In this document: positions 284 to 22,800 of the stretch, piece after piece
Position numbering within the stretch: the first letter of the stretch is position 1
How the letters are laid out: every line of letters starts with the position of its first letter
DNA from: a virus
Reading direction: 5' to 3' (one strand)
Virus record (IMG/VR): IMGVR_UViG_3300048117_000362
Span: 1-24,183 of that record
DNA: 24,183 nucleotides
Notes under the pieces: model-generated
Told to the model about the DNA's origin: nothing
Databases searched by the model: none
What the model saw: the letters and a program-made list of their open reading frames with translations, nothing else
Translations under genes and position numbers: made by a program

Positions 284-2396
284 TCTTCATCTCCTCAATT
301 TCTGCTTTCAGTTCCTTCACGGCCTCGACCAGCAAGCCAATCACTTGGTCGTATTGAACGGTTTTATAGGTCTGGCCCTCTTCGCCGTGGAATACAGCCC
401 CATCCTCAATGACCGCCGAGGGGAGAACCTTCTCTAAATGCTGGGCAATAAGACCGGCCGACTTGCGGTCATCTTTGAGGTAGGTAAACGTGCAACCGTT
501 CAGCTGCTGCACCTTGGCCATTGCGTCTTTGATCGGCGCAATGTCCTTCTTGAGGCGAATGTCTGAAACCGTGGTGGAGTATGCGACTACGTTGCCATCG
601 ACATGCAAATCGCCATCGGCCTCAAGCCTCATCTCCTCCCCGCCAGCAATCTTAAACTTTATGTTAGTTGTTGCATCAAGCGTTATTGGGTAGCCGACAT
701 CCAACAGAAACCCATCGGTTGCGCGATCATCAAACGTGATCCCCGCTGTCGCGTAAACTGTGTTGTCGGTGTCAAATGTCCACTTGATAAGACCTTCAGT
801 TCCAGTAACACCAGACTTTAATTGTATGCCAGCATTATCTTCATCTAACTTAACACTGCCCGTGAGATTAATGCCTGTGGCGGTGGTGGCTAGTTTGGCC
901 GAACCGTCATGATAAACATAGGCAGAACCATCTGCTAAACCTAAAAAGATGTTTTCATTTGTTGCGCTTCTAAGTGCAATCTCAGAAGAACCCCTTAAAT
1001 ACAAGCCTCCTGTTCCAGCATCGTGAACATAACTATTCGACCCATCGTGATAAATCTCAAGGTCACCAGCACCGAAGATGGCTTTGTTGTTGTCGCCAAA
1101 TGACAGGTTGCCCGTCATTGTGTCGCCAGCCTTGGCAACCAAAGTCGCGCCATCAGCATAAGCGTCCACCCAAGAAGTGCCATTAAAGACTTTCATATCC
1201 GCAGTCGTCTCGTTGAAATATAGACTGCCGGCGACCAAGGAATTTCCATCATTATCGACGCTTGGGTCACTAGCTTTTGCACCGAGGTAACGATCATCAA
1301 AGCTGTCGAAAGATGCCAACGCGGAATCCCGTGCGCTTTCAGCAGAGGTTTTCGCGCTCTCAGCATCATCCTTGTGCTGTTCTGCGGTAACGGCAGATGC
1401 CGCCGCGTTAGATGCTTGCGTTGTGGCTGTCTGCTCGCTTGATAACGAAGCCTGCTCACTAGCGTCAGCCGCCTGCTCACTAACGAGTGCCGCCGCCGCG
1501 CTTACGCTGGCGGCGTTCTGGCTGACCAATGCCGCTTGCTCACTAGCATCAGCCGCCTGCTCACTAGCGCTTGAGGCGTTCTCGCTGCCAAGTGCAGCCT
1601 GCTGACTGACCAATGCCGCTGCCGCGCTTACGCCCGCCGCGTTCTCATGGCCTGAAGCTGTAACAGCGCTGGCCGCTGCTGCCTGCTGACTTGCAAGCGC
1701 AGCCACTTCCGAACCAGCCGCATTCGTCTCCGCTTGCCGGGCGTTGGTTACCGCATTAGCGGTTGTTACGGTTGGCCCCCAAATAATTACGTTCTCGCGT
1801 CCTGCAACTGCGGGTGTTGAAGGCGGGTTCACGAAGGTAATGGTGTTTTGTGAGATCGAGTAATCGTCAACCGGAGTGTTAAGCTGGCCATCCACAAACA
1901 CCAAAACATCGGTGTTGCTGGAATAAATATAAGAAAGCGTGAATACAGCTTGAGAGCCAGTGCCTAAGAACTGATCAACGGCAGAAGCGCTTGTGTCGAT
2001 AGCAGCGTTGGCTAACAGCAGCCAGTGAGCCGCCAAACTGTCAAATGTCGAAGCGGATGTGTGGGCGTTGATACAGATGTATGTAGCATCATTGAAATCA
2101 ACAACATCGTTAATCTCGTAGTAAATTCCGGTTGCCCAATCGCCCCTAATGTTGAAACCGTCAGCTTGAGCGATTGCAAGTGCATCCTGAGATAAACTCT
2201 CCGCTGTTACAGACTGGTTAGCCAGCTGAGTGTCGTCACGCTGCAAAATGGCCATATTGTTTAAAACGGCATCAAGGGTAGACTTGATGCGGTCAAGCTC
2301 CGCCTCTACCTGTGATGCTGGGAGCGGGTCTTGCGGGTTGGACGTTTGATACGCTGAGAAGTCGTAAGCACGACTATAAATAGGAGGCTGGGCCAT
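267..2396 (-). CDS. Tail fibre protein with C-terminal S74 intramolecular chaperone
   Basis: 709 residues. The N-terminus (about 1-75) is probably the virion attachment part. Residues 82-128 (RGDWATGIYYEINDVVDF) resemble a chitin/carbohydrate-binding module. A beta-rich segment follows (about 140-210), then a long Ala/Ser/Glu/Gln repeat region (about 215-350) likely to form a trimeric coiled coil. After it come beta-structural motifs such as EIYHDGSNSYVHD. The last 99 residues match the peptidase S74 chaperone (SDIRLKKDI, then AGLIAQHLEKVLP). In this family the fibre trimerises and cuts itself just before that Ser, here Ser611, so the mature fibre would lack the tail. The Shine-Dalgarno AAGGA precedes the ATG. 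Host receptor binding is inferred from the family. Confidence 0.93.
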   Translation of the reverse strand: MAQPPIYSRAYDFSAYQTSNPQDPLPASQVEAELDRIKSTLDAVLNNMAILQRDDTQLANQSVTAESLSQDALAIAQADGFNIRGDWATGIYYEINDVVDFNDATYICINAHTSASTFDSLAAHWLLLANAAIDTSASAVDQFLGTGSQAVFTLSYIYSSNTDVLVFVDGQLNTPVDDYSISQNTITFVNPPSTPAVAGRENVIIWGPTVTTANAVTNARQAETNAAGSEVAALASQQAAAASAVTASGHENAAGVSAAAALVSQQAALGSENASSASEQAADASEQAALVSQNAASVSAAAALVSEQAADASEQASLSSEQTATTQASNAAASAVTAEQHKDDAESAKTSAESARDSALASFDSFDDRYLGAKASDPSVDNDGNSLVAGSLYFNETTADMKVFNGTSWVDAYADGATLVAKAGDTMTGNLSFGDNNKAIFGAGDLEIYHDGSNSYVHDAGTGGLYLRGSSEIALRSATNENIFLGLADGSAYVYHDGSAKLATTATGINLTGSVKLDEDNAGIQLKSGVTGTEGLIKWTFDTDNTVYATAGITFDDRATDGFLLDVGYPITLDATTNIKFKIAGGEEMRLEADGDLHVDGNVVAYSTTVSDIRLKKDIAPIKDAMAKVQQLNGCTFTYLKDDRKSAGLIAQHLEKVLPSAVIEDGAVFHGEEGQTYKTVQYDQVIGLLVEAVKELKAEIEEMKNGSSK
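1440..1700 (-). repeat. Degenerate coding repeat of the tail fibre shaft
   Basis: Imperfect repeats built on GCCTGCTCACTAGC- and GCCGCCGCGCTTACG-like units encode alternating SEQAADASEQAA and SAAAALVSQ peptides. The periodic Ala/Ser/Glu pattern suggests a helical shaft whose length can change by slippage or recombination. It is wholly inside the tail fibre gene. Confidence 0.75.
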
Positions 2397-2399
2397 TGT

Positions 2400-2483
2400 T
2401 TAATCCTTTTGATCTTGGTGACATTTGCACTTGCAAGAGTCCGGGTTGCATGGGCGCTCGGAACAAGCAAAACAGCGGCTCAT
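2400..2483 (-). CDS. Possible 27-residue Cys-rich microprotein
   Basis: A short frame starts at ATG 2483 and ends at TAA 2400, filling the gap between the small basic protein gene (stop at 2487) and the tail fibre start (2396) with 3 bases to spare on each side. The peptide starts MSRCFACSER and has seven cysteines, including CxxC, CxxxxC and a CxCxC cluster followed by His, so it could bind zinc. Short MSRCFAC-type proteins occur in many tailed phages, which is why I include it. I see no strong Shine-Dalgarno, so expression is uncertain. Confidence 0.5.
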   Translation of the reverse strand: MSRCFACSERPCNPDSCKCKCHQDQKD

Positions 2484-2486
2484 GGC

Positions 2487-2666
2487 TTAGTAGCCCATCG
2501 ACTTGGACAGCCTGCCGCTACCGCTCTTCTTTTTGGTTTTATTTTTTTTACTGTTTGGAAAGCCAGCTTGCATATTTTTGTAGGCTTTGGGAGTTACCGT
2601 CGAAGAAGATTTGGAACGAGACGTTCCAGCCTTTTTGCGTCGATTGATGTTTTCATACAGACTCAT
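2487..2666 (-). CDS. Small basic phage protein (MSLYENINRRKKAG type)
   Basis: 59 residues, very rich in Lys, Arg and Ser (MSLYENINRRKKAGTSRSK, then KKNKTKKKSGSGR). It resembles a small conserved protein of marine phages with no known function; its charge suggests nucleic-acid contact. I chose ATG 2666 because GAGGAAA lies 8 bases upstream and the ATG shares one base with the TGA stop of the preceding gene (TGATG). A longer in-frame extension to 2693 would sit inside the upstream gene and lacks support. Confidence 0.8.
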   Translation of the reverse strand: MSLYENINRRKKAGTSRSKSSSTVTPKAYKNMQAGFPNSKKNKTKKKSGSGRLSKSMGY

Positions 2667-2944
2667 CAGGATTTCCTCAAATTGCACCGCCACCTTTTTA
2701 ACGCAGCGCCTTTTCTGGTTAGCTTGCCCTTCTCATCTCTGATCGGGCCTTTCACTCCAGACATCCGCGCGCAAAAACTTTTCTTGCGTCCGGCGCGTTT
2801 GCCCTTCGGGTTTTTCTCCGTGACAGGAGCTTTAAGATTCGACCCGGTAGCGCGATTATATTTCGCCCTACCCTTTGCCGTTAATCCAGCGCCGCGCGAC
2901 TTAGATAGCTTTTCACCGCGACCAACAGAAAGACTTACCGACAT
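2666..2944 (-). CDS. DUF6321 family protein
   Basis: 92 residues. The core (GLTAKGRAKYNRATGSNL, then KKSFCARMSGVKGPI, ending LKRWRCN) matches DUF6321, a small basic family common in marine phages with unknown function. Two conserved Cys positions and many Lys/Arg suggest a nucleic-acid or metal-binding fold, but this is inference. The ATG at 2944 has GGAG 7 bases upstream; a TTG at 2965 would add seven residues and remove that ribosome site. It is followed by a coupled small basic gene. Confidence 0.85.
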   Translation of the reverse strand: MSVSLSVGRGEKLSKSRGAGLTAKGRAKYNRATGSNLKAPVTEKNPKGKRAGRKKSFCARMSGVKGPIRDEKGKLTRKGAALKRWRCNLRKS

Positions 2945-2967
2945 ACCCGTCTCCAATAACCACAATC

Positions 2968-2973
2968 ATTATA
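2968..2973 (-). promoter_or_regulatory. Possible -10 box for the DUF6321-tail fibre genes
   Basis: A perfect TATAAT on the minus strand lies in an AT-rich stretch 24 bases upstream of the DUF6321 ATG. I find no good -35 at the usual spacing (TTGTAG is 20 bases away), so the promoter is tentative. Readthrough from the terminase gene is the alternative. Confidence 0.35.
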
Positions 2974-3066
2974 AAAATAAATCGACAGTTAATCTACAAA
3001 TACGCAAAAGTTCATTTTCGCAAAAAATTTATATTCACGCCCATAATATGTAACGAGCGGGCATGC

Positions 3067-3092
3067 GGGGGTGGCCGGGGGGGTGGGTCGGG
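3067..3092 (+). other. G-quadruplex motif in the gap beside the terminase gene
   Basis: The 179-base gap 2945-3123 contains no gene I can support. Its left part is AT-rich and its right part abruptly G-rich. Four G runs (3067-3071, 3077-3083, 3085-3087, 3090-3092) separated by 5, 1 and 2 bases fit the G3+N1-7 quadruplex pattern on the plus strand; the terminase transcript would carry the C-rich strand. The site lies next to the small terminase gene, where phage cos or pac sites are often found. The packaging link is inference. Confidence 0.55.
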
Positions 3093-3123
3093 CGGTGAAT
3101 GGTCTGCCCGTGACTATTCTTTT

Positions 3124-3606
3124 CTAGTCTTTCTGCGGCTCAACGACTGACGCGGTGACATCTATGGTGTTTTTCTCGTCTTCCCATCGGTCAATAAGCT
3201 GCCCCAGCTGCTCCGGTGACATCTCTGCCAGCTGCCCCGTCTGCCCCGCCTCGCCGGACAACTTGCCCAAGTCTCCGGCAAGCTCGAACACTGTGCGCGC
3301 TGCGCTCACCTTGGATGACGCCGGAGCGTCTGGGTCAATCATCACAGTTTTGAGCGTTCCAATAGCCATATTGGTCAGCTCGCCTGCGTATATAGTTTGT
3401 CTCGCCTGCCGGATAGCGGCCTGAATGTGCGGCGCTCTGGTAAGCCTGTAGGCCGCCTGCTTTGGTTGGGCATATCCGGCTTGGCGCGCGGCCTCTGTCG
3501 GGTTCATATTGCCGGTGACTAGGTGATCAATAAAAGCCAGCTGCATATCAGTATTACCACCGGCTACCGGCGCTTTATGGGTGGGTTCTTTTTGTGTAGA
3601 TTTCAT
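3124..3606 (-). CDS. terS: Terminase small subunit
   Basis: 160 residues, a usual length for the family. Residues 21-70 (MQLAFIDHLVTG, then PTEAARQAGYAQPKQAAYRL) are the N-terminal helix-turn-helix of Terminase_2-type small subunits, which recognises the phage packaging site and loads the large ATPase/nuclease subunit. The middle is helical, as expected for oligomerisation, and the C-terminus is acidic, where the large subunit is usually contacted. No large subunit gene is in the window. The ATG at 3606 has a poorly spaced AGGG; ATG 3546 is an alternative that keeps the whole domain. It is divergent from the ribozyme operon. Confidence 0.85.
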   Translation of the reverse strand: MKSTQKEPTHKAPVAGGNTDMQLAFIDHLVTGNMNPTEAARQAGYAQPKQAAYRLTRAPHIQAAIRQARQTIYAGELTNMAIGTLKTVMIDPDAPASSKVSAARTVFELAGDLGKLSGEAGQTGQLAEMSPEQLGQLIDRWEDEKNTIDVTASVVEPQKD

Positions 3607-3633
3607 GCCCTATGATAGCTTGTTGATTTGTTG

Positions 3634-3661
3634 TTGACTATATGCCCATTCTGGATATACT
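3634..3661 (+). promoter_or_regulatory. Sigma70-type promoter of the ribozyme operon
   Basis: TTGACT (3634-3639), a 16-base spacer, and TATACT (3656-3661). The predicted transcript start, about 3668, coincides with the first base of the leader hairpin at 3669. The -35 box lies inside a TGTTGACTAT word that also occurs in the lysogeny control region, so the promoter may be under phage repressor control (inference). Confidence 0.75.
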
Positions 3662-3668
3662 CACCCCA

Positions 3669-3709
3669 CCAAAGCAATCTCGCTTTGGCAAAAACTGATG
3701 AGGTAAACA
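3669..3709 (+). promoter_or_regulatory. 5' leader 1: terminal hairpin plus CTGATGAGG ribosome site
   Basis: Hairpin CCAAAGC (3669-3675), loop AATCTC, GCTTTGG (3682-3688), then an A-rich stretch, CTGATGAGGTAAAC and the ATG at 3710. GAGG is the Shine-Dalgarno. The same plan (hairpin with AATCYC loop plus the same ribosome site) recurs after each hammerhead ribozyme, where the hairpin would be made 5'-terminal by cleavage instead of by initiation. Confidence 0.8.
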
Positions 3710-4321
3710 ATGGGAACGAGAGCAACATATGAAATTGATGGCGAGGTTTTTTATTGCCATTTTGACGGATACCCACAAGGCGCGGCGGCGCGCTTTGCGG
3801 CGATGGTTGGTAAGCTGCACGAGGTTACCGATTACGGCACAATCAGAAACAACGGCGGCGGCATGGGCTTTGCCTTTATTCGCGGCGCTGATGACGCCCA
3901 GCCAACCGAAAGCCATGAGGCGCACGGCGATGCCGAGTATCGATATATCTGCTATCGAACTTCTGAGGGCGTAGTCTTAACCGCTCATGCCCGCATGGGT
4001 TTCAACGGTGGATGGCATATCATTTACAGCGGCGCGCTGTGGGGCTTTATAAACGCATTCACGCCAGACCTTGAGCGGCGTGCGTGTGTCGTGCCGCTTG
4101 GTCACAGCTGCGGCACTGGCTCGCTGGTCAGTGTCCGGCAGCTGCGTAGCCTGAAGGACTCCGCCGGAGTGTCTGAGGCTTTCCAAAAGGCGGCACGCCT
4201 TATTGGTTGCAATGCAGCGCTTGACCAAATCCGCTATGCAATCAAACAATCAGGCTACGAGCGCGGCGACGAACTGTCGGGCAATGTAATGCGCGGCGGC
4301 TTGCTCGCCGCTGCGGAGTAA
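3710..4321 (+). CDS. Conserved hypothetical protein, first gene of segment 1
   Basis: 203 residues starting MGTRATYEI, followed by FYCHFDGYPQGAAARF. This start resembles a family of uncharacterised phage and bacterial proteins that begin MGTRATY and carry an H-x-DGYP motif; I know no function. The sequence is soluble-looking, with aromatic and Gly-rich stretches (GFNGGWHIIYSG) and three Cys in the middle. The start is fixed by GATGAGGTAAAC in the shared leader. It opens the first of three ribozyme-bounded gene triplets. Confidence 0.82.
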   Translation: MGTRATYEIDGEVFYCHFDGYPQGAAARFAAMVGKLHEVTDYGTIRNNGGGMGFAFIRGADDAQPTESHEAHGDAEYRYICYRTSEGVVLTAHARMGFNGGWHIIYSGALWGFINAFTPDLERRACVVPLGHSCGTGSLVSVRQLRSLKDSAGVSEAFQKAARLIGCNAALDQIRYAIKQSGYERGDELSGNVMRGGLLAAAE

Positions 4322-4326
4322 TTGTC

Positions 4327-4608
4327 ATGCTTGATTATATCATTTTCGGCATTGTCGATAACGGCGTGATGATTTTAGGCGCGTTTACGGGTTTGGAGGT
4401 CGAGCGGTATTTGCCGCAGCGCTTCCGGCTCGGCGCAATCATGCCGATTGTCGGCGCTGGCATTGGTAACACTGTCAGCGATTTCATGGGCGGCGTTGCA
4501 GCTGGTAGCCCCGCCCTTGCCATCGGCACGGGTATAGGCTGCCTCATTGGGCTGCTGTTTATTCCGGCCTTCATGCAATTCATCAAGCCAGCGGAGGGCG
4601 GACAATGA
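4327..4608 (+). CDS. Small Gly-rich membrane protein
   Basis: 93 residues with two to three hydrophobic segments (about 4-22, 38-60 and 64-84) rich in Gly, Ala and Ile (GAGIGNTVSDFMGGVAAG). This resembles a phage membrane protein family that I cannot tie to a function. Holin is possible from size and topology, but no lysin lies nearby. GGAG is 8 bases upstream of the ATG. The stop overlaps the next start by four bases (ATGA). Confidence 0.8.
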   Translation: MLDYIIFGIVDNGVMILGAFTGLEVERYLPQRFRLGAIMPIVGAGIGNTVSDFMGGVAAGSPALAIGTGIGCLIGLLFIPAFMQFIKPAEGGQ

Positions 4609-4796
4609 CCGGAGATAAACTCATAAAGCTTGTCCCGAATTGGGTGGCTGTTCTGCCAATTCTGCTTAATGGCTTGCAGAACGGCGACAGCAACGCGCAA
4701 CAAATAGCGCGGCAGGAGTTGGAGCGAATGGCCGCAGCGGCTGACGCCTTCAATGCGGACGAAACAAGGCCAACTGATGAGCCGCTAGACGGGTAG
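4605..4796 (+). CDS. Small hypothetical protein whose 3' end is part of hammerhead ribozyme 1
   Basis: 63 residues with a hydrophobic N-terminal half (LVPNWVAVLPILLNGL, possibly one membrane-associated helix) and a polar helical half. Function unknown. The final residues PTDEPLDG and the UAG stop are encoded by the ribozyme: CTGATGA is read as part of Thr-Asp-Glu, and the stop is the last base of loop II plus two bases of stem II. Another gene, ending at 5680, finishes almost identically (PTDEPLNG) for the same reason. The start overlaps the upstream gene by four bases. Confidence 0.8.
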   Translation: MTGDKLIKLVPNWVAVLPILLNGLQNGDSNAQQIARQELERMAAAADAFNADETRPTDEPLDG

Positions 4797-4842
4797 CGGC
4801 GAAACGCTGGGGCGTGTCCTGTATTCGCCCCGGCGTCTTGGC
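4769..4842 (+). ncRNA. Type I hammerhead ribozyme 1
   Basis: All core elements are present. Stem I is GCCAA (4769-4773) with TTGGC (4838-4842). Core CTGATGA is 4774-4780. Stem II is GCCGCT/AGCGGC (4781-4786 with 4795-4800), loop AGACGGGT. GAAA is 4801-4804. Stem III is ten pairs (4805-4814 with 4826-4835, one G-U) plus the A-U pair 4804/4836. The cleavage triplet GTC is 4835-4837, so the predicted cut is between 4837 and 4838, 41 bases after the stop of the upstream gene. Both ends leave through stem I, which makes it type I. Self-cleavage is predicted from the family consensus. Confidence 0.93.
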
Positions 4843-4875
4843 AATCCCGCCAAACAAAACTGATGAGGTAAAAAA
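4838..4875 (+). promoter_or_regulatory. 5' leader 2: hairpin that becomes 5'-terminal after ribozyme 1 cleavage
   Basis: TTGGC (4838-4842), loop AATCCC, GCCAA (4849-4853), then ACAAAA, CTGATGAGGTAAAA and ATG 4876. The first hairpin base is the first base after the predicted cut. TTGGC pairs either with the ribozyme strand at 4769-4773 (stem I) or with 4849-4853 (leader hairpin), so the two structures exclude each other. Confidence 0.82.
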
Positions 4876-5298
4876 ATGGACGTTGGAAAAATTATTATTC
4901 AACAAATTAGGGGTTTCGACCCACTGGCTTTGATGGCATGGCGGGCAAGGGATTTCGTTCTTGTCGATGCCGGAAGCCATGCCAAAAGCATTTCAGCGAA
5001 ATGCGATTGGCAAAAATTCGGCGCACGAAAAACAAACTTTGCGCCGACAGCCAGTCACGCGGGGGGCGTAATATTCAGCATCGCAAACATGCCAGCTTGT
5101 AAAAGGGGCGCGGTGCATGTCTTTCTCAACCATTCGGACGAATATGACGTCTTAGTCACAAAGCCCCCGCGTGAATTAGGCGAAAAGTCTGCGGCAGTAG
5201 TCGCGCAAGCTACGGGCGTTTATTGCGACATGCTCCCCACAATAATTGATGACATGCTGAACGGTGTCATTTGTCACTCCGATGTGGTGATGGACTAA
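4876..5298 (+). CDS. Conserved hypothetical phage protein, first gene of segment 2
   Basis: 140 residues beginning MDVGKIIIQQIRGFDPLAL, then MAWRARDFVLVD. The start, with an IxQQI-G-DPxAL pattern, resembles a small protein family often seen in marine phages and plasmids, for which I know no established function. The C-terminal part (GVYCDMLPTIIDDML) is helical. The start is set by GATGAGG in the shared leader. It ends in TAATG, overlapping the next start by one base. Confidence 0.82.
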   Translation: MDVGKIIIQQIRGFDPLALMAWRARDFVLVDAGSHAKSISAKCDWQKFGARKTNFAPTASHAGGVIFSIANMPACKRGAVHVFLNHSDEYDVLVTKPPRELGEKSAAVVAQATGVYCDMLPTIIDDMLNGVICHSDVVMD

Positions 5299-5495
5299 TG
5301 AAGTTTATCGCAACAGGGTTTTGGTTTTTGTGCGCTGGTCTGGCTATGAGTGGCGCGCTTCAACTTCTTGCGCGGCGGCGGCGGCGAGGTGGGACAATCG
5401 TAAACATCCGCACGGGTGAAATCCAACGAGCCGGAGGGTTTTCCATAGATGACCAGCGGAGCGAAATAATGCAGAGCGAAAGGGGCAAGGCATGA
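5298..5495 (+). CDS. Small single-pass membrane protein
   Basis: 65 residues: an N-terminal hydrophobic helix (about 3-24, FIATGFWFLCAGLAMSG), an Arg-rich stretch (ARRRRR) and a polar tail, predicting a membrane anchor with the tail in the cytoplasm by the positive-inside rule. Function unknown. I chose ATG 5298, coupled to the upstream stop (TAATG), rather than an in-frame ATG at 5271 that lies inside the upstream gene. The end overlaps the next gene by four bases. Confidence 0.72.
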   Translation: MKFIATGFWFLCAGLAMSGALQLLARRRRRGGTIVNIRTGEIQRAGGFSIDDQRSEIMQSERGKA

Positions 5496-5680
5496 GCGAA
5501 AAATGTCCAAGATGCGACAGCGGCGAACTCGGCTTCGGAGAGGTCGGGGATGGCGTTGAGTATGAATATTGGGACTGCAATGAGTGCGAAGCGCAATTCT
5601 ATGTGCCTATTGAGATAGTGCGCGACTTTGCAAACATGGAAGACCAAGAGCAGCCAACTGATGAGCCGCTGAACGGGTAG
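5492..5680 (+). CDS. Small zinc-ribbon protein whose 3' end is part of hammerhead ribozyme 2
   Basis: 62 residues. KCPRCDSGELG and WDCNECEAQFYV form a CxxC...CxxC pair spaced as in zinc ribbons, suggesting a one-zinc fold used for nucleic-acid or protein binding. The acidic C-terminus ends PTDEPLNG; those codons and the UAG stop (5678-5680) belong to the second ribozyme. This places it in the same position in its triplet as the gene ending at 4796, although the rest of the two proteins is unrelated. The start overlaps the upstream gene by four bases (ATGA). Confidence 0.83.
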   Translation: MSEKCPRCDSGELGFGEVGDGVEYEYWDCNECEAQFYVPIEIVRDFANMEDQEQPTDEPLNG

Positions 5681-5719
5681 CGGCGAAACGCGAGCGGCGC
5701 CAGCTGGTCGCGTCTTGGC
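5653..5719 (+). ncRNA. Type I hammerhead ribozyme 2
   Basis: Stem I is GCCAA (5653-5657) with TTGGC (5715-5719). CTGATGA is 5658-5664. Stem II is GCCGCT/AGCGGC (5665-5670 with 5679-5684), loop GAACGGGT. GAAA is 5685-5688. Stem III is CGCGA (5689-5693) with TCGCG (5708-5712) plus the A-U pair 5688/5713. GTC is 5712-5714, so the predicted cut is between 5714 and 5715, 34 bases after the upstream stop. Compared with ribozyme 1, stems I and II are identical in sequence, while stem III differs but still pairs, which supports a selected RNA structure. Confidence 0.92.
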
Positions 5720-5749
5720 AATCCCGCCAAAAAACTGATGAGGTAAACA
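5715..5749 (+). promoter_or_regulatory. 5' leader 3: hairpin that becomes 5'-terminal after ribozyme 2 cleavage
   Basis: TTGGC (5715-5719), loop AATCCC, GCCAA (5726-5730), then AAAA, CTGATGAGGTAAAC and ATG 5750. It is nearly the same as leader 2 (two bases shorter before CTGATGAGG) and again starts exactly at the predicted cut. Confidence 0.82.
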
Positions 5750-6205
5750 ATGAAAGATGAAATAGAAACTAGGCATATGACGCTGGATGCCGATGACGTA
5801 GGCAATGCGCTTGGGTTATTGGAAGAAGTGGCAAAAGGCTTGCGGAAGCACCGAGATGAAACGCTCGGCGGCGGCTGCCCTGACACGCTCACGCAAGTAT
5901 TTATGGCGCATGAAGATGTGCAGTATGAACTTGAGCGCATCCAAAATTTGCTTGAAGCATTCCCGTATAATTTTACGGAAAACGAAAGCAAGTATTTCTA
6001 TCTATCCGGCTCTTTCCAGTGCCATTTCGAAAATGAAAACCACTGGGTATATTTAATCGAGTTGGTTGCGCCCGACACCAGCGAAAAGGTTTTTGTTCAA
6101 TGGACAGAAAGCTATGAACTGGAAGAAGGCGACGTCATTGCAAGTGTCTGCAAGGGCGAGATGGATGAATATATCGACCAATACGGAGAAAGGGAGGCAG
6201 CGTGA
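5750..6205 (+). CDS. Hypothetical acidic protein, first gene of segment 3
   Basis: 151 residues, acidic, with a helical N-terminal half (NALGLLEEVAKGLRKH, then EDVQYELERIQNLLEAF) and a C-terminal part rich in aromatic and acidic residues (FQCHFENENHWVYLIELV). No recognised domain. The start is fixed by GATGAGG in leader 3. The stop overlaps the next start (TGATG). It begins the last ribozyme-bounded triplet. Confidence 0.8.
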   Translation: MKDEIETRHMTLDADDVGNALGLLEEVAKGLRKHRDETLGGGCPDTLTQVFMAHEDVQYELERIQNLLEAFPYNFTENESKYFYLSGSFQCHFENENHWVYLIELVAPDTSEKVFVQWTESYELEEGDVIASVCKGEMDEYIDQYGEREAA

Positions 6206-6528
6206 TGCTGATTACTGTATTAAATTTTGAAACGGGCGCGGTAGATACGCACGACTTTTACCAGTATGACGGGCAGTCTGCAGAAGATGTTTTGCTGCGG
6301 AAATATGACAGCTTGGACAATCTGCAATGGATGGCTCACGATGAAGACCCTGATGAGTTTATCGAGCGCTGGCATACGGATGATGCGAAAGTCACTTGCG
6401 AGTGGCTCACCGATGACCAAGCGCGGGAAGTTATGGAGGGTTATTTAGACCGCTGTAAATCCGATGACTTTGAGGTCATTGCTATCATAGCCGATATGAT
6501 GTTCCCCGAACCGGAGGAGGCTGCGTAA
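6205..6528 (+). CDS. Hypothetical acidic protein
   Basis: 107 residues, strongly acidic, beginning MLITVLNFETGAVDTHDFY and ending FPEPEEAA. No recognised domain; the mix of Asp/Glu with aromatic residues suggests a soluble protein. GGAGG at 6193-6197 is 7 bases before ATG 6205; a GTG at 6202 is possible but too close to that site. The stop and next start share one base (TAATG). Confidence 0.8.
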   Translation: MLITVLNFETGAVDTHDFYQYDGQSAEDVLLRKYDSLDNLQWMAHDEDPDEFIERWHTDDAKVTCEWLTDDQAREVMEGYLDRCKSDDFEVIAIIADMMFPEPEEAA

Positions 6529-6716
6529 TGGCTGACGGACACGACCCCAAAACCGCCTTGCAGTTTGAGCGTATTCTAAGCTGCGCCAATCGCATCATCT
6601 GGGAAGTCGAGAACACCGACACAAGCGAAGCTTGTGCGGCTGACGCGGCAGCCATTAACAGCGTGGCATGGGAACTAATAAACCTGACCCGCGATGGTAT
6701 AGATGAAACCACCTAA
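6528..6716 (+). CDS. Small helical hypothetical protein
   Basis: 62 residues, mostly amphipathic helix (ALQFERILSCANRIIWEVE, then AAAINSVAWELINLT) with two or three Cys. Unknown function. GGAGG lies upstream inside the end of the previous gene, and the start is coupled by TAATG. It is the ninth and last gene of the operon; a strong terminator follows five bases after the stop. Unlike the last genes of the first two triplets it has no PTDEPL tail and no ribozyme behind it. Confidence 0.77.
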   Translation: MADGHDPKTALQFERILSCANRIIWEVENTDTSEACAADAAAINSVAWELINLTRDGIDETT

Positions 6717-6720
6717 AACG

Positions 6721-6751
6721 AACTCCGGCGGCTGCGGCTGCCGGAGTTTTT
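6721..6751 (+). terminator. Intrinsic terminator, probably bidirectional
   Basis: Nine-pair stem AACTCCGGC (6721-6729) with GCCGGAGTT (6740-6748), ten-base loop, and a run of five T (6747-6751). On the minus strand the same stem is followed by CGTTTT, so it may also stop the replication operon arriving from the right. Confidence 0.85.
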
Positions 6752-6793
6752 ACTACCCCTAATTTTCTCAACAGTGTTAGAGCAGAGCCACAA

Positions 6794-6961
6794 ATGCACA
6801 AAATCCTACAAATTGCTTATGATTTACGTCACCAGCTGGACAAGCTACCTAACGGCGGCGGCTGCGATGTGGATGGTGACGAAACCGACATGACCGCACG
6901 GCAGCGGATGGTGCTTATCATTCAGCACTTGGAGAAAGCAGAGCCACAATCTATCGAGTGA
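6794..6961 (+). CDS. Possible small helical protein
   Basis: A 55-residue frame, MHKILQIAYDLRHQLDKLP at its start and MVLIIQHLEKAEPQSIE at its end, with a charged Gly/Asp-rich middle. It looks protein-like (two amphipathic helices) but has only a weak AGAG ribosome site and lies just after the terminator, so it would need readthrough or its own promoter. Its 3' end overlaps the convergent gene ending at 6951 by 11 bases. Confidence 0.45.
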   Translation: MHKILQIAYDLRHQLDKLPNGGGCDVDGDETDMTARQRMVLIIQHLEKAEPQSIE

Positions 6962-7118
6962 CCGGCATGCAAACACCAAACTTTTGATGTGGAAGCTGGT
7001 TGGTTCTTGTCGCGTAGTCAAAGCACTCCCACCAATCAATGTTTGGAACTGCGCCGATCAATGCAAAGCTTCCATCAGCAGAGCGAGAAAAAAGCATAAA
7101 GACGAAATCAATCTCCAT
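6951..7118 (-). CDS. Small hypothetical protein at the end of the replication operon
   Basis: 55 residues (MEIDFVFMLFSRSADGSFAL, then IDWWECFDYATRT). ATG 7118 overlaps the stop of the DUF6378 gene by 11 bases, the same dense overlap used throughout this operon. The aromatic, globular-looking composition supports a real gene. Function unknown. The ribosome site is weak, so coupling is likely. Confidence 0.6.
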   Translation of the reverse strand: MEIDFVFMLFSRSADGSFALIGAVPNIDWWECFDYATRTNQLPHQKFGVCMPVTR

Positions 7119-7515
7119 CTTTAATCGCCTTGCGTATCTGACAGTCTCGACACTTACATTCGTATGTGGATTGTGATATTTCCGAGTTACCGATTACCTC
7201 ATCAGTATCGGTTGGCGGTCTGGCTTCGGTCAGGCCGCCTTTTTCTTGGGACACTTCAAATCCAACAGCAGCGTATCCGGCAATATCAACCCAACTATCT
7301 CTGTGATTGGGCGATTGCTGTAGTCTCGCAATCTTTTGCAAAATGTTAAGCACAGCCACATCGCTATCGCGTAATTCACTGACACCAGACAGGTATGCCC
7401 GCCATAGATCAGCGATGGCTTTTTGATTGGCGCTAGGAGAGCCATAGGCATCGTTTCTAGCGCCGTTCACCAACTCGCTGGCCTCATGTAGCAGATTAGA
7501 ACGGAAGTTCATCAT
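7108..7515 (-). CDS. DUF6378 family protein
   Basis: 135 residues. The central part (ASELVNGARNDAYGSPSANQ, DLWRAYLSG, DVAVLNILQKIARL, HRDSWVDIAGYAAVG) matches DUF6378, a helical family widespread in phages. The pattern of conserved Glu, Asp and Arg in helices recalls the all-alpha NTP pyrophosphatase fold, but that role is inference. The C-terminus adds a Cys cluster (YECKCRDCQIRK) that may bind metal. I chose the ATG pair at 7515/7512, preceded by GGGGAG and overlapping the upstream gene by about 20 bases; a longer upstream extension would lie wholly within that gene. Confidence 0.85.
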   Translation of the reverse strand: MMNFRSNLLHEASELVNGARNDAYGSPSANQKAIADLWRAYLSGVSELRDSDVAVLNILQKIARLQQSPNHRDSWVDIAGYAAVGFEVSQEKGGLTEARPPTDTDEVIGNSEISQSTYECKCRDCQIRKAIKDGD

Positions 7516-12099: not shown

Positions 12100-12443
12100 T
12101 AGTCTTCTCCTTCAGAAGTTCTAGGGATAAAGGCGATAGTGTCTTGCTTATCGCCCGGGCGGATTTCCGCCCGATACAGGCTTTCGAGGACATTCTTCGC
12201 GTGATTGCGAACAATGCTTGCCTCGATGCCTGCCAACTCGCAGACTGCGAAGAAATCTTCTTCGTCAAAAAGCAGCCAGCAAATTGTTTCTTCGGTGCGG
12301 CGGCGGTATGTGACCGGATGCCATTCATGGGCGTCGAGTAACGCCCGATAGATGACATGCGCCCAAAGCATTTGCTCCGGGCTGTGAGGTCGCTCGTGCC
12401 ACTCGCTCTCAAACTGTGAATATCCATCACGCGCCTGTCCCAA
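12099..12443 (-). CDS. Hypothetical protein, TTG start
   Basis: 114 residues, no recognised domain. A helical, globular core (QMLWAHVIYRALLDAHEW, TEETICWLLFDEEDFFAVCE, SIVRNHAKNVLESLYRA) is followed by a polar tail. I chose TTG 12443 because AGGGAG lies about 7 bases upstream and the overlap with the nuclease gene is only 17 bases. A TTG at 12530 would give 104 bases of overlap, and ATG 12371 is a shorter option with GGAG too close. The gene is coupled to the next one (TAATG). Confidence 0.7.
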   Translation of the reverse strand: MGQARDGYSQFESEWHERPHSPEQMLWAHVIYRALLDAHEWHPVTYRRRTEETICWLLFDEEDFFAVCELAGIEASIVRNHAKNVLESLYRAEIRPGDKQDTIAFIPRTSEGED

Positions 12444-13275
12444 AGTATTTCTCCCTGAGAGTGTTTGCTCCGTTCCAATAGAAAGAAGACGGATCGTGTG
12501 AGACGTATTTAACGAGTTCAGAGGTTTCAACGGGGAGGTCGAGGATGCGGTTCATGGCCGCTAGGTTTGTCTTGATTAACGTGATGAACGGATTTGTGTC
12601 GTGTAGTTCCCGATACACAATCGGGTCGGATTTACGTTTAAGTGAGTAAAGGAAGCGCACCCGATAGTTGGTTACGCGCTGGTAAAGAGCCGCTTGAATG
12701 CAGTGATCCAGCTGCCGAGACTTTAATGACCATTCCTCCGGCGCGCTGCCGGGGCATTTAAGGTCAATAATCAAGCCGTCCTGTTCCCACATAAAGTCGA
12801 GAAAGCCGATGACGGGAATGAAGTCATTATCACCGTCACCAAACTTAATGCTAACTTCCCCGTTTGCATCTAGCGGGTGTTGCGCCTTGCCAAAGCTTTT
12901 GTGTTTGGGGTCGGGCTTCGTCGGGACGCCCAATGGGCGCATTTCATTGACTGCGTTTTCCGTGCGGTAGTTTAGTTCGTTAGTATATTTCTCTACCAAC
13001 TCCTCTACTGCCGGGTCGCCCTTTCTCAATGATGCAAACTTATCAATGGTTACTTTGTTGTATTCATCCGTCGATGCGTCTGGATTGAACAAACCAAACT
13101 CGACGCCATCTTCAACACTTGAACCAATGTCCGCAGCGATGCTGTCGAATGGAAACTTCTCTTTCATTATATATTGAGTGATGTAGGCGCATGGCGCGGT
13201 CATCATCTTCTTGATCTGAGTAGCGCTGACCCTCTTTACGCCGCGCTTTGTAAACCCATTTACTGGTAGTGCCAT
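12427..13275 (-). CDS. PD-(D/E)XK nuclease (Cas4/RecB-like exonuclease)
   Basis: 282 residues. The PD-(D/E)XK core is visible: Glu55/Glu59 in IGSSVEDGVEFG, Asp160 in VIGFLDFMWEQ, the DLK of LIIDLKCPG (Asp171-Lys173), and a QAALYQR helix (from Gln194) typical of the RecB/Cas4 branch. Phage members act as 5'-3' exonucleases or recombination nucleases and often work with a single-strand binding protein or annealing factor. Four Cys are scattered but no clear iron-sulphur cluster pattern is present. GGAG is 8 bases before the ATG; three bases separate it from the resolvase gene. Confidence 0.87.
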   Translation of the reverse strand: MALPVNGFTKRGVKRVSATQIKKMMTAPCAYITQYIMKEKFPFDSIAADIGSSVEDGVEFGLFNPDASTDEYNKVTIDKFASLRKGDPAVEELVEKYTNELNYRTENAVNEMRPLGVPTKPDPKHKSFGKAQHPLDANGEVSIKFGDGDNDFIPVIGFLDFMWEQDGLIIDLKCPGSAPEEWSLKSRQLDHCIQAALYQRVTNYRVRFLYSLKRKSDPIVYRELHDTNPFITLIKTNLAAMNRILDLPVETSELVKYVSHDPSSFYWNGANTLREKYFGTGA

Positions 13276-16890: not shown

Positions 16891-19800
16891 TTACCGGCGC
16901 TTTTGTTTCTCATTGCGCGGGACATAACGTCTACCATTAAACAGTTCAACCATCTGGTTCGCGAACTCTTTTTTGGCGTCTGCGCTTCTCAAGTTTAGCA
17001 ACCCCGGATAAAGCATTGTTTGTTTTGCTATACGGGGAACAACATTTTCTGGCACAGCGGCAAAGCCAAACGACATGGCCGGGACAGCAATTGCTTCGTA
17101 AAACCCTTGCCACCCCTGATACTCGTCGTATAGAGAGTTTTCATTATCGTTAAAGGTAGTGTTTGCCATCTTAGCAAGAGCAGTAGTGTAATAGGATATT
17201 GACCCGACTACTGAGTTTGACAAATCTCGCTGGTATTTGATCCCGTATATGCCGTTTACCACCGGATCAAAAGCGCCGTAAAAGCCTGCTCGACTAAGAC
17301 CTAGCATCAGCAAGTATTGAGCAAGCTCATCCTCTCTCTCTTTTTCTTCCCACCGATCCTTGTTAAAGGCAGCTTCGCGCAATGTGGCAACAGCAAGATG
17401 ACCGGCGTAGAGCATGGCGGCAGGCAATGCCACTCGCAAGGCAGCGTATTGGGTAGCACGGAGCTTGCCGTTGTCCTTCGCATCTCGAATAATGCCTTTT
17501 GCAACTTTGATTATAACATTACGTTGGAACGCAAATATAAAAGATGTGATTGCAAAAATAATCCGGGGTAACGGATGCTCCGCATACAAAGGCTTCACTC
17601 CGGGCTGCGGGTCTTGGACTGCCATGCGAGAAGCGCGAGACAAAGCATTTACATAGACAGATGCTATCCCCTCAATAGCGCCGCGCTCGTTAGTCAGGTC
17701 GCTAACTGTGGGCTGCCGGTATTTTAGTTCGCCATTCTCTTGGTTCATGTTGATGACATATTCAACAAATTGGGGTAGCGCATCTTCGCTGACACCAAAA
17801 TCCTGTAACATGCGCTTATGACGATTGAGTTTTGTCCGTGCAGATTCGCTCTTGTCGCCTTCATATTTATTGAAATCCTTGGCGATCTCGTAAAACATTT
17901 TGCTAAAAATTTGAACCTGCGCCCGGCGCTGCGCGTTTGTAACTGGCCCAAGCATGTTGGCAATAAAAAACCTTGTTACAAACCCGTTGACCTTAGAGTC
18001 AGATAGGTATCCTCCACCTAAACGGTTTTTAATTACATCTCCGAATTGCATGTCCTGAGATGCCCCAATAATGCGGGCTACTTGATCAAGAGTTTCGAAC
18101 TTGTCCGTATCACCCATCCAGCTGCTGGATTGCCAAGCTTGACGCAGCGTGAAGTAAAAAGACTTTACTCCGTCTCTGACATCGCCAGTTTGCAAGGCGG
18201 TTGTAAACGGCTCGGCAATAGATGAAATGGTTGCAGCCCCAAGCAACGGAACAGTTACCCCAGCGGCAACACGATCACTCATTCTGTTTTGCCAAGAAGT
18301 CCGGCTATGGGTTGCCATGTTTACACCGGCAGCGCGTTTGATAGTTTCAATAAACTCGTGGATATCATGCCGGTGAACGCCCTGCTCAACCAGCTGTTCA
18401 CGCGCCCAATCTAAGTAGTCGTTATATTGGAGCTTGCCCTGCCCTTTAGGAATGTTCTGCAATCCAAACGCCCGGTTGTATTCAGCCTTGCGTGTGGCTC
18501 CCATGATGTAATTTTGGATCGCGATGATTGGGTTGTCGATATAGTATCGCTGAAGAATGCGGTCTGCTTCGGTTGGCAGGCTGCGTTTTTTGGTGAAGTT
18601 TGCAGCGGTTGAGCCGGTCTGTATGTCTCCCGATTGAGCCATGCCAATCGCGAGATTCCAATTTCGGGCCTTAACCTCGGCTTCAGCTTTCTTAACAGCT
18701 TCGTATATTTCCTGTAGCTCACTCTCTTCCAGAGTTACTTCTGCACTTTCATTTTGAACCATTGAGCGAGCATCGGCCAACTTGGTAGCCATTTCGCTTG
18801 TCAAATTAGCGGTAATCGAGCGATCCAATCGCTCAATGATCGCCTCAAGCTGCTCTGCGCTTGCATTGAACTCACCTACCTCATTTGTGAAGATAATCTC
18901 GTAAACCCTTGAAGCGTCTTGAATAAACTCTTTTTGATTTTCAAAGATTGCAGTGTCATCGATCATGCGAGGCAGATAGCCACCTTCGCGCAAGTAATTA
19001 ACATTTACTCCAGCTTTGTTGAGATAAGTGTAAATCTGATCCATCAGCTGACGCAATTCACGCGCCGGAACTGACAAGTCGTAGTCAGCGCCTTCGTGTT
19101 TGATCGCAAGGTCGATGGTGTCTTCCTGTCCCGTCAGGAAGTCCCTCAATATGTCAGTGACCGGAACTGGCAAGTTGTCCAAATCGTATTGAGTAACGAT
19201 TTGCCCCAACTTCGCTGTATATTCGTTCATGCGCTGCTGCGTTTTATCGTAAACCGTTCCGCCAGCAACCGTCCCATCCATCCCGCCGGGGTTGTAGGTA
19301 ACTTTTTTACGGATGTCTTGCATAAGCTTGTTGTCTGCGTATCGCCCGGAAATACTTAGGATGTGACCGTCTTTTGTGGCGATGCCGATGCCGCCTGCAA
19401 ATCTGTCGTAGCTTTCCCAAACCTTCATACCCAAAGGCTTGTTGTGTTTGATTTTAGGCTGCTTGCGCTCCTGTATGATCTGGGCGTTTTTAACAGCGGT
19501 AGTCTCTCGATCCATCTCATCGAAGATTTTTTTCATCGGGCTACCTTGGTAGCGAGGGGGAGTGGTCTTCCAAGCACCCATCGGATCGAGCTTGGTGCGT
19601 CCTACGCCGGTATCCAAAGCATTTCTCTGCCCAAACTCACCAGTCTCATAGAGAGCTTGCATTAAGTCAGCATAAGCTCCAAAGACCTTTAGTCGATCTT
19701 CGGCCTGCGGATACATTCTGGTTAATTCAAAGGGATTTTCACCAATAAAGTCTTCGGCCATTACGTCATAGAAATTATCGCCCGGTGACACTAGGTCAGA

Positions 19801-22800
19801 GTCCGCCTTCAAGGCATCCAGCTGGCGGGCGACAAAAGCCTCGCCGCCGCGCGCAAACATTTCAGTCGGCCGGTTTAAGTAGTTATCACCTTTTGTCTGT
19901 TCATTCATTGACGAGGCTGCGACACGAGCGCTACTGCGGCCAGCAAGAATGTTATTGAGCCTGCCCTGCGCTACCTCTAGGGACTTATACTGTTTACCAG
20001 TTTGGCGCTGGCGCGCCTCAAGCCGGGCAATCTCTTTTTCCAGCTGCATAATCTTGCCTGCTTCCGCAGCGGCATCAGTGTAAAGTGTTCGGATTAAACG
20101 CTCAAAAGCTTCAGTGACCTCAGATGGGGCGGCTTCCGCAAATGCTTTTTGTTCTTTTCGCGCCTTACGCACTCTTGCGGACTGCCCTCGGTTGCTCTCG
20201 GCACTCTCTTCGCTGTCGATAGCTATGTCTCTCGTGCCGTAACTGTCCTGTATCCAATAATCAAGAGCGTGGAACCATTCATGCGCGAACACGTTTGACT
20301 CAACAACTTGGTGTATTTCTTTGTCGGCATTGCTGTAATAGGCCAGCGCGCCCTGCCCCGGCAGTCCGCCATCAAGGTAGAAACGCAGTGTTCCATTTAA
20401 GCCAAGAACGCTCGGCGGCATTTGCAGCGAATGGGCCATGTTTTCAAACGCTACATACCCAGCCATTAGCTTGTTAATCGCGCTTTTGACGTTTGCGTTG
20501 TCTTTCACGATTACCTTGATGCCGAAGCGCTGCTCAAACGTATCTGATATAATTTTTATTTGGCGTTTGGGCGGCAGGCTCATAGCTGTGTCTGCGTTGT
20601 AGCCAGCGGCAACAAATACATCAGCTATAATCGATTGCTCTACAGTCTCTACTTGCCCGGTCTTTCGGGTGCGCTGGTCTATGACTTTATCCAGCTGCGA
20701 TGCCGGGGCTGCTTTGCGGTCTAGCTTTTGCTGACTGCGCCCTTCAGTTTCGCTTCGGCGTCCGCGAGTATCCGCGCTGCGCTTTTCATCTGTTGGTCTT
20801 TGAGCTTGTTCCCGACTTTGGATAGGCTGCGCTGCATCGCGCTGCGAGCCTTGCTCGATGAACGATATTTGGCCACTATCTTCACTCCCTTCGCCGCGAT
20901 CAACTTTCTCACGGGCTACTTGAACAATATCTTGAGACGTAGTGTCGTCTTCAAAGAAGCCACCGGCCTCTTTCTGCGAGGCTTCGTCAACATAGAAGCC
21001 CAACACCTGAGTCAGCTTCTTAGCACTTAACGCTCGGTTGCCATCATAGAACGCCACTATTAAAGCTTCAACCAGCGGGTCGAGGTCTGTAAATGCGTCT
21101 TGCTGTGCCAAGAAATCTTTTACCTTAACACCCTCGTTTCGCAGCTGACTAATGGTCTTGGCCACCTCAACAATAGCGGGGGTTATGTCGTATTCGGCAT
21201 CAATCCGACCAGCTGCAATTTCAGCCTGTAGTCGTGCAAACGCCGGTGACGCGCCCAGCATAGCGCTGGTGATGTTGCGAATGTTATCATCACGGCTCTC
21301 AAGCATGTTTGCTAGAACGCCAGTGTCTTTATATGTCTTGGCTAGAATGGCTGCCTCAATACGCTGCGCGCCCTCTTTCGTTAGGCGTCCGTCACGGCTA
21401 AATGATCCGCGCTCGTTCTCAGCAACGATGTCGCGTGAAAACGCATCAAGAAACATTTTGTTGTCGCGGCTCTCAATGTTGCCACCCATATACACGCGCA
21501 ACATAGAATCGGTCAGGCGGTCAGCGTCCAGCTGCGCTTGCTCTGTAGCGCCCATCCGTGCTGTCCGGTCAAGGTTATTGCCTTGAGCAAATCGCACGGC
21601 AGCATCAGTAGTGATGTCACCTTCAATCTGCATAACCAAAACGGGCTGGCGCATAGAAGCCACATCAGCGTTCAGCTTGCCTGCTTGGCGGTCAGTGATC
21701 GGCGCTGCTTGCCCTTTGTTACTATCTAGGTAATCACGAAGAAATGACTTGTAGCTTATGCGCTGTTGCACCAAGTCCTGATCGTTATAGACTTCGCGCA
21801 GCGTAAGCGCACGGCCGTTACCAGAAACAATTGTGCCATCAGACAAGATAATAGGAGCGCCGCTATCGCCAATCGGACTGTCGCCTAGCTGACGCGGATC
21901 AAGTTCTACAGCGCGCTTTCTTACGCCGCTATCGCTTTCAGCTAATGACCGGTCACGCGGTTGCAGCGCCCCGGTAGCTTGCTTCAAGTCATCTAGCTCT
22001 ACGATTACAGGACGAGCCGTTACAGCCTCAGACTGGTCAACGCTTGTTATTTCGCGCCTATTAGATACAGCTGCGGTGTTGGTGATGCGTGGGTTTGGAG
22101 TTTCAACCAACGTCCGACCAGCTGGAGGTGTCTCATTCTGAGGCGTCTCCACAGGGTCGGGCAGCACAGGCGTTTCAGTGGCCGGCACTTCTGGCTCGGC
22201 TATCGCTTGCTGACCCTCCAAGCTAACTGTTTGCACTGGTGTTTGTGTCGAAGTAACCGCCTCACTTGGAATATCAATACCAAGTGCTTCATACCCGGAA
22301 ACCGGTCTTCCCGTGTCTAAATTTAAGTTATAACCCTGCCCCGGTGTGGGGTCGAAGGCGCGCGCCACATCTTCAGTTGCGAGAGCGTTTTCCAAATTAC
22401 GCTGCTCTGTTGCAGCTTTTTGCCGAGATAGGTTTGCGGGAGTTTGAATCGCAGTCTCAATAGCCCCTATCGGCCCCTCCGCTATGCCTTCAAGGAAAAT
22501 ATCACCCCTAGACAGTTCGTCACGAGCGCCAACGCCCATCTGAGCCAGCTCGCCAGCTGCCTCCCCGGCTGCCCCAACCACGCCTTGCAAAGCAACCTCA
22601 CCAACAGCGGCAGCGGGGACTGCTAATTTGCTTCGGGCGGCTATAGCTGGCGCTATAAGTTTACCAGCGAGTCCAAAGCTTAAAGCGTCGAAAGCGGCAA
22701 TCGGGAGCGAGTATGCTCCGGCGCTCACGCGCGCATCAGACCAAAAGTTCTCGTCTTGCAGCAGGGAGGCAATCTTATCTCGGTTTGCCGGGTCGTCTGG

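Follow-up and report, generated by a model that had tools for sequence, protein, structure and literature searches.

Why would a phage place self-cleaving RNAs at regular intervals within one operon? This question is raised by virus record IMGVR_UViG_3300048117_000362, a 24.2-kb contig (24,183 nucleotides (nts), hereafter called the window) from a temperate tailed marine phage. Positions 3710-6716 of its plus strand hold nine small open reading frames (ORFs) arranged as three blocks of three genes, and each block joint is a near-copy of one cassette, a type I hammerhead ribozyme followed by a short leader. The reason why bacteria and phages carry hammerheads has been an open question since 2010-2011, and a 2017 review still described the role of the prokaryotic ones as open (PMC6155905). 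The presence of a type I hammerhead at both block joints was confirmed. From the sequence features described below, we consider it probable that the nine-gene operon RNA would be self-cut into three tricistronic mRNAs with hairpin-headed, translation-ready 5′ ends.

The two complete type I hammerheads and their cut positions, as proposed in an initial annotation of this DNA, were recovered in agreement by folds, a motif scan and a covariance model built from phage sequences. According to folds and scan, the core CUGAUGAG/GAAAC/GUC is intact and stems I, II and III are paired in both ribozymes, with 5, 7 and 11 contiguous pairs in ribozyme 1 and 5, 7 and 6 in ribozyme 2; the minimum free energy folds agree, and the z-scores of the hammerhead folds are -3.4 and -2.6. 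CUGANGA, GAAA and UH are found at a three-way junction where stems II and III are closed and stem I is open-ended, the arrangement of type I. Ribozyme 1 consists of stem I (GCCAA/TTGGC), the core CTGATGA, stem II (4781-4800), GAAA, stem III (4804-4836) and GTC. Ribozyme 2 has the same stem I and core and nearly the same stem II, and its stem III is different but paired. The motif scanner, which demands core and stems, gave 1 match in 860 kb of shuffled sequence. The covariance model, built from 32 type I hammerheads all taken from other phages, matched exactly at both sites (26.7 and 26.4 bits, E-values 3.2e-6 and 3.8e-6) and gave no third match in the window. A type II reading, combining the core with the downstream CTGATGAG, was rejected: a linker of 4-6 nts separates stem I from the core, and no more than one or two pairs could form in stem II. 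When stem III was compared among three sequences only (ribozyme 1, ribozyme 2 and L128), 95.8% of the cells were paired and four of the eight outer pairs were altered on both sides, a result equaled in 15 of 500 shuffles. This paired divergence of stem III points to selection acting on the RNA fold and not to a simple duplication.

Both ribozymes are on one strand, between phage genes and shortly before a start codon, the distance from cut to ATG being 38 and 35 nts. They had been placed exactly after genes 3 and 6; the position between three-gene blocks holds, but the ribozymes overlap the last 28 nts of these genes. The claim of matching leaders was borne out, since all three predicted RNAs share one plan, in which a hairpin with the loop AATCYC is followed by an A-rich linker, CTGATGAGGTAAA and ATG (Table 1). 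Positions 3690-3712 and 5730-5752 are identical over 23 nts, and 4855-4877 is 83% identical. In leader 1, CTGATGAGGTAAACA includes the GAGG Shine-Dalgarno sequence, and the hairpin begins about 7 nts after the -10 box, with a stem that differs from those of leaders 2 and 3. The leader of segment 1 would arise from the promoter start, and those of segments 2 and 3 by self-cleavage. The leaders are specific to this phage: a search of the collection outside the phage with the leader core AAACTGATGAGGTAAA gave unrelated contexts only, so the leader is not a shared motif, and a scan of genome contigs with the pattern of a type I ribozyme plus leader gave matches at about the chance level, among them one weak structural match (L083). 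As far as our searches reach, this specific leader design has not been described before. In another phage group, represented by L265 (130-152, 546-570) and L420 (4203), the leader after a promoter-like site (AAACAAACAAATGGAG) is the same as the post-cut leaders, and similar leaders also precede internal genes.

Table 1. Predicted features of the operon, in window coordinates.
Feature	Coordinates	Strand	Remarks
Sigma-70-like promoter, -35 TTGACT, spacer 16, -10 TATACT	3634..3661	+	10/12 consensus matches
Leader 1: hairpin CCAAAGC-AATCTC-GCTTTGG (3669-3688), CAAAAA, CTGATGAGGTAAACA	3669..3709	+	fold -9.9 kcal/mol, z-score -2.4
Segment 1, genes 1-3 (3710-4321, 4327-4608, 4605-4796)	3710..4796	+	
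Hammerhead ribozyme 1, type I	4769..4842	+	cut C4837^T4838
Leader 2: hairpin TTGGC-AATCCC-GCCAA (4838-4853), ACAAAA, CTGATGAGGTAAAAAA	4838..4875	+	predicted cut product
Segment 2, genes 4-6 (4876-5298, 5298-5495, 5492-5680)	4876..5680	+	
Hammerhead ribozyme 2, type I	5653..5719	+	cut C5714^T5715
Leader 3: hairpin TTGGC-AATCCC-GCCAA (5715-5730), AAAA, CTGATGAGGTAAACA	5715..5749	+	predicted cut product
Segment 3, genes 7-9 (5750-6205, 6205-6528, 6528-6716)	5750..6716	+	
Intrinsic terminator, 13-pair hairpin (6720-6749) then T run	6720..6752	+	-25.5 kcal/mol, z-score -8

Inspection of leaders 2 and 3 showed that their GCCAA is a second copy of the 5′ strand of stem I. When folding of the growing transcript was followed, the catalytic fold was the minimum free energy structure with 5-15 nts made past the cut, and from 17 nts onward the leader hairpin was favored by about 1.7 kcal/mol, these nearest-neighbor energies leaving out tertiary contacts. 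Since the preferred fold changes with transcript length, cleavage is predicted to be co-transcriptional, fast and then irreversible. The same competition can be read as a conditional switch, in which leader hairpin and stem I exclude each other, translation of genes 3 and 6 enters the ribozyme, and cleavage occurs only with scarce ribosomes or slow transcription, giving one mRNA or three. The folding crossover about 16 nts past the cut is in line with such a switch, as is the location of the stop codons of genes 3 and 6 (4794-4796 and 5678-5680) within stem-loop II; among 177 type I cases, 57 have a stop codon that lies at least 10 nts within the ribozyme. However, a competing leader copy is absent from most phage type I ribozymes, so the switch would not be general, and the stop codon overlap may simply follow from genome compactness and from the UGA that the core contains. 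We regard a switch as unlikely.

From the structures, their positions, the repeats and their recurrence in other phages, we infer ribozyme activity, the 5′ ends and the effects on stability and translation as follows. One transcript would run from the promoter to the terminator and be cut at both sites into three three-gene mRNAs, the cutting being co-transcriptional, while stem I can still form. Once the leader GCCAA is made, the new 5′ end UUGGC would fold back on it, and the resulting 5′-terminal hairpin would release the product and block re-ligation. Each mRNA would start with a hairpin, followed by an A-rich stretch free of structure, a GAGG Shine-Dalgarno sequence and AUG, and would end with a hairpin provided by ribozyme stem III or the terminator; two of the three would carry 5′-OH ends. 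The likely benefit is that one promoter would supply several defined and stable mRNAs, each translated independently, without reliance on host RNases. A different outcome would be cleavage followed by ribozyme-mediated ligation, which would yield circular segment 2 RNA or join segment 1 to segment 3. Both ribozymes have GCCAA/TTGGC, and any cut end would fit either, but in the folding model the leader hairpin would capture the 5′ end, the stems I of one array are usually different, and in the 2011 report on prophage arrays spliced or circular products were sought and none found (PMC3088659). We therefore consider ligation extremely improbable. A rule of one shared stem I per array, which would favor circular or spliced RNAs, was rejected as it fails in most arrays.

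The wider meaning of the matching leader lies in the recurrence of a post-cleavage 5′ hairpin. In types II and III, a stem I hairpin is present at the new 5′ end by construction. For type I, 170 distinct phage hammerheads were examined for a hairpin at the cut 5′ end with 5 bp or more in the stem and 3-10 nts in the loop. In 26 of them such a hairpin can form by re-pairing of stem I, whereas 1000 shuffles averaged 3.2 and never exceeded 10, and swapping of the downstream sequences gave 4.4. The set includes some close relatives, and 2 of the 26 are from the present phage, making the effective number smaller, but the excess is large despite this kinship. Where the leader is very short, type I ribozymes mostly lack the hairpin. 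Re-pairing of the 3′ strand of stem I with a downstream sequence into a 5′-terminal hairpin is, as far as our searches reach, not described before. These data allow a general phage device to be proposed tentatively, as a possible but somewhat doubtful extension: a hammerhead of any type would give a hairpin before the ribosome site at the new 5′ end, some type I lineages would regain it by a second copy of a stem I strand, making the cut one-way, and the promoter-made end would follow the same plan. In a subfamily with the stem I GCTATA (L326, L385, L391, L415, L419), the Shine-Dalgarno sequence AGGAGG is inside the post-cleavage hairpin, TATAGC-AATAGGAG-GCTAT, which suggests that cleavage there could lower rather than raise translation.

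The arrangement recurs in other phages. Pattern scans, which select hammerhead-bearing contigs and whose counts are matches listed, not prevalence, gave arrays of at least three ribozymes in more than 50 loci; among the matches listed, arrays contain 3-9 ribozymes and their segments 1-6 genes. A 98.6-kb virus (G001, the record of L018) has ten type II matches at 318-7344, eight strong and two weak. Of 70 loci picked solely because they contain a relative of gene 2, 15 had hammerheads (36 within 486 kb; five shuffles gave none), against 0 of 57 control loci picked for an unrelated motif with equal total length; the p-value of 1e-4 for this difference is optimistic because of relatives in the set. 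The median distance from cut to start codon in other phages is 28 nts for type I and 51 nts for type II, and 92-97% of the cuts are at most 100 nts before a start codon, compared with 48% of random positions. Hammerheads are also present in tandem, unannotated, in two cultured pelagiphages: HTVC109P (MH598805 1-4908) has them at 563-620, 1105-1164 and 2325-2377, with predicted cuts at 593/594, 1158/1159 and 2350/2351, and HTVC031P (MH598800) has types III, II and I at 290-341, 1301-1360 and 2070-2154, separated by the three-gene blocks gp02-04 and gp05-07. The scanner found one hammerhead each in HTVC021P and HTVC304P, and our literature search found no paper linking hammerheads with pelagiphages. 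Self-processing into three tricistronic RNAs, as first annotated, is the best reading of the sequence and has a precedent in prophage arrays (PMC3088659), but the three-by-three layout is no rule, given the segment sizes elsewhere.

The near-identical repeats of 39 and 25 nts at both joints allow another explanation, that the cassette serves mainly DNA recombination, near-identical joints permitting block swaps between phages, and that RNA cleavage is incidental. Besides the repeats, the small size and poor conservation of array genes would fit this view (PMC6155905). However, stem III has diverged with its pairing kept, only 16 of 92 adjacent type I pairs have the same stem I, and all three circular permutations of the hammerhead occur at the same position before the start codon. 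Recombination as the main role is accordingly judged decidedly unlikely.

Several observations weigh against processing into three mRNAs. In the full precursor the leader hairpin slightly beats stem I, and by this fold part of the RNA could stay uncut. Ribosomes ending genes 3 and 6 would cover the ribozyme. Loop II (CGGG) is able to pair with CCCG past stem I, but the type I set shows no enrichment of this contact (27 versus 22 expected). The only near relatives found are copies of the phage itself with 99.5-99.9% identity, too alike for covariation in the leader. The promoter-like site, the nine ORFs and a strong terminator hairpin are all present as annotated, the promoter by consensus only; the transcription start near A3668 is predicted on the same basis, and promoter-like sites are not above chance (15 in 20 kb versus 18.4 in shuffles). 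The terminator hairpin was also detected as an inverted repeat. Rfam at the gathering threshold gave nothing in the window, RF00163 (Hammerhead_1) had no match there, and a permissive run of RF02276, whose cut-off is 37 bits, scored 24.5 and 20.2. Ten other records that have clear type I copies likewise gave no above-cut-off match to RF00163. These weak Rfam scores, and the slightly better non-catalytic fold of the complete precursor, might indicate that the ribozymes are inactive relics. We find this very improbable, because the core is fully conserved in two copies whose stems III diverged independently and stayed paired, and because the position is conserved across phages. As a separate observation, RF00163 fails to detect most clear phage type I hammerheads or scores them too low, and annotation pipelines probably undercount them.

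Other genes in the window encode an integrase, a terminase small subunit, a primase/helicase, a Holliday junction resolvase and a tail fibre. Within the blocks, stop and start codons overlap at genes 2/3, 4/5, 5/6, 7/8 and 8/9, and genes 1 and 2 are separated by 5 nts. The product of gene 2 resembles the membrane protein TMEM65, with a match just below the cut-off, and members of this family are found in about 70 viral contigs; protein annotation gave no known function for the other eight operon genes. Genes 1 and 4 and the window protein at 12427-13275 had no relative among phage records, whether these were searched as DNA or as protein. A minus-strand ORF of 2223 residues (16891-23562) perhaps encodes a large polyvalent protein.

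The operon offers a concrete, falsifiable role for phage hammerheads, the production of cut RNAs with uniform, hairpin-capped, translation-ready 5′ ends, and also a natural model for dividing polycistronic mRNAs into pieces with defined ends. Many further arrays came from the survey, as did the cultured pelagiphages HTVC109P and HTVC031P, in which the idea becomes testable. Like the window, these two have ribozymes between early genes and just before the Shine-Dalgarno sequence, and in HTVC109P a type I ribozyme comes immediately after the homologue of window gene 2; unlike the window, types I, II and III are mixed and the leaders are A/C-rich, not CTGATGAGG. The type II family RF02276 resembles the window leaders in that the cut RNA has the stem I hairpin, then CTGATGAGG and a ribosome site, whereas in the window leaders an A-rich linker precedes CTGATGAG and a stem II partner is lacking, and the active fold uses the upstream core. 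In T7, RNase III cuts one early transcript between gene blocks and the ends are structured; the cutter there is a host protein enzyme, not a cis-acting RNA. The use of hammerheads as punctuation had been thought undescribed, but clustered arrays flanking genes or short gene blocks in prophages were already reported in 2011, and the processing of long phage RNAs into operon- or gene-length mRNAs was proposed for them (Perreault et al., PMC3088659). In that work three arrays were shown to cleave in vitro and one (A. tumefaciens) in E. coli, and a transcript 5′ end of halovirus HF2 was noted within 3 nts of its hammerhead cut. The prophages of Clostridium scindens, Azorhizobium caulinodans and Agrobacterium tumefaciens likewise have several hammerheads around single genes or short blocks, but no shared 5′ leader, promoter-side copy or post-cleavage 5′ hairpin is described for them in the available text of that report (PMC3088659). 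The theta ribozymes of gut phages, which are hepatitis delta virus (HDV)-like, are also self-cleaving and thought to serve phage RNA maturation, but they belong to another class and are tied to tRNA genes, where they act in 3′ trailer processing (PMC10879173).

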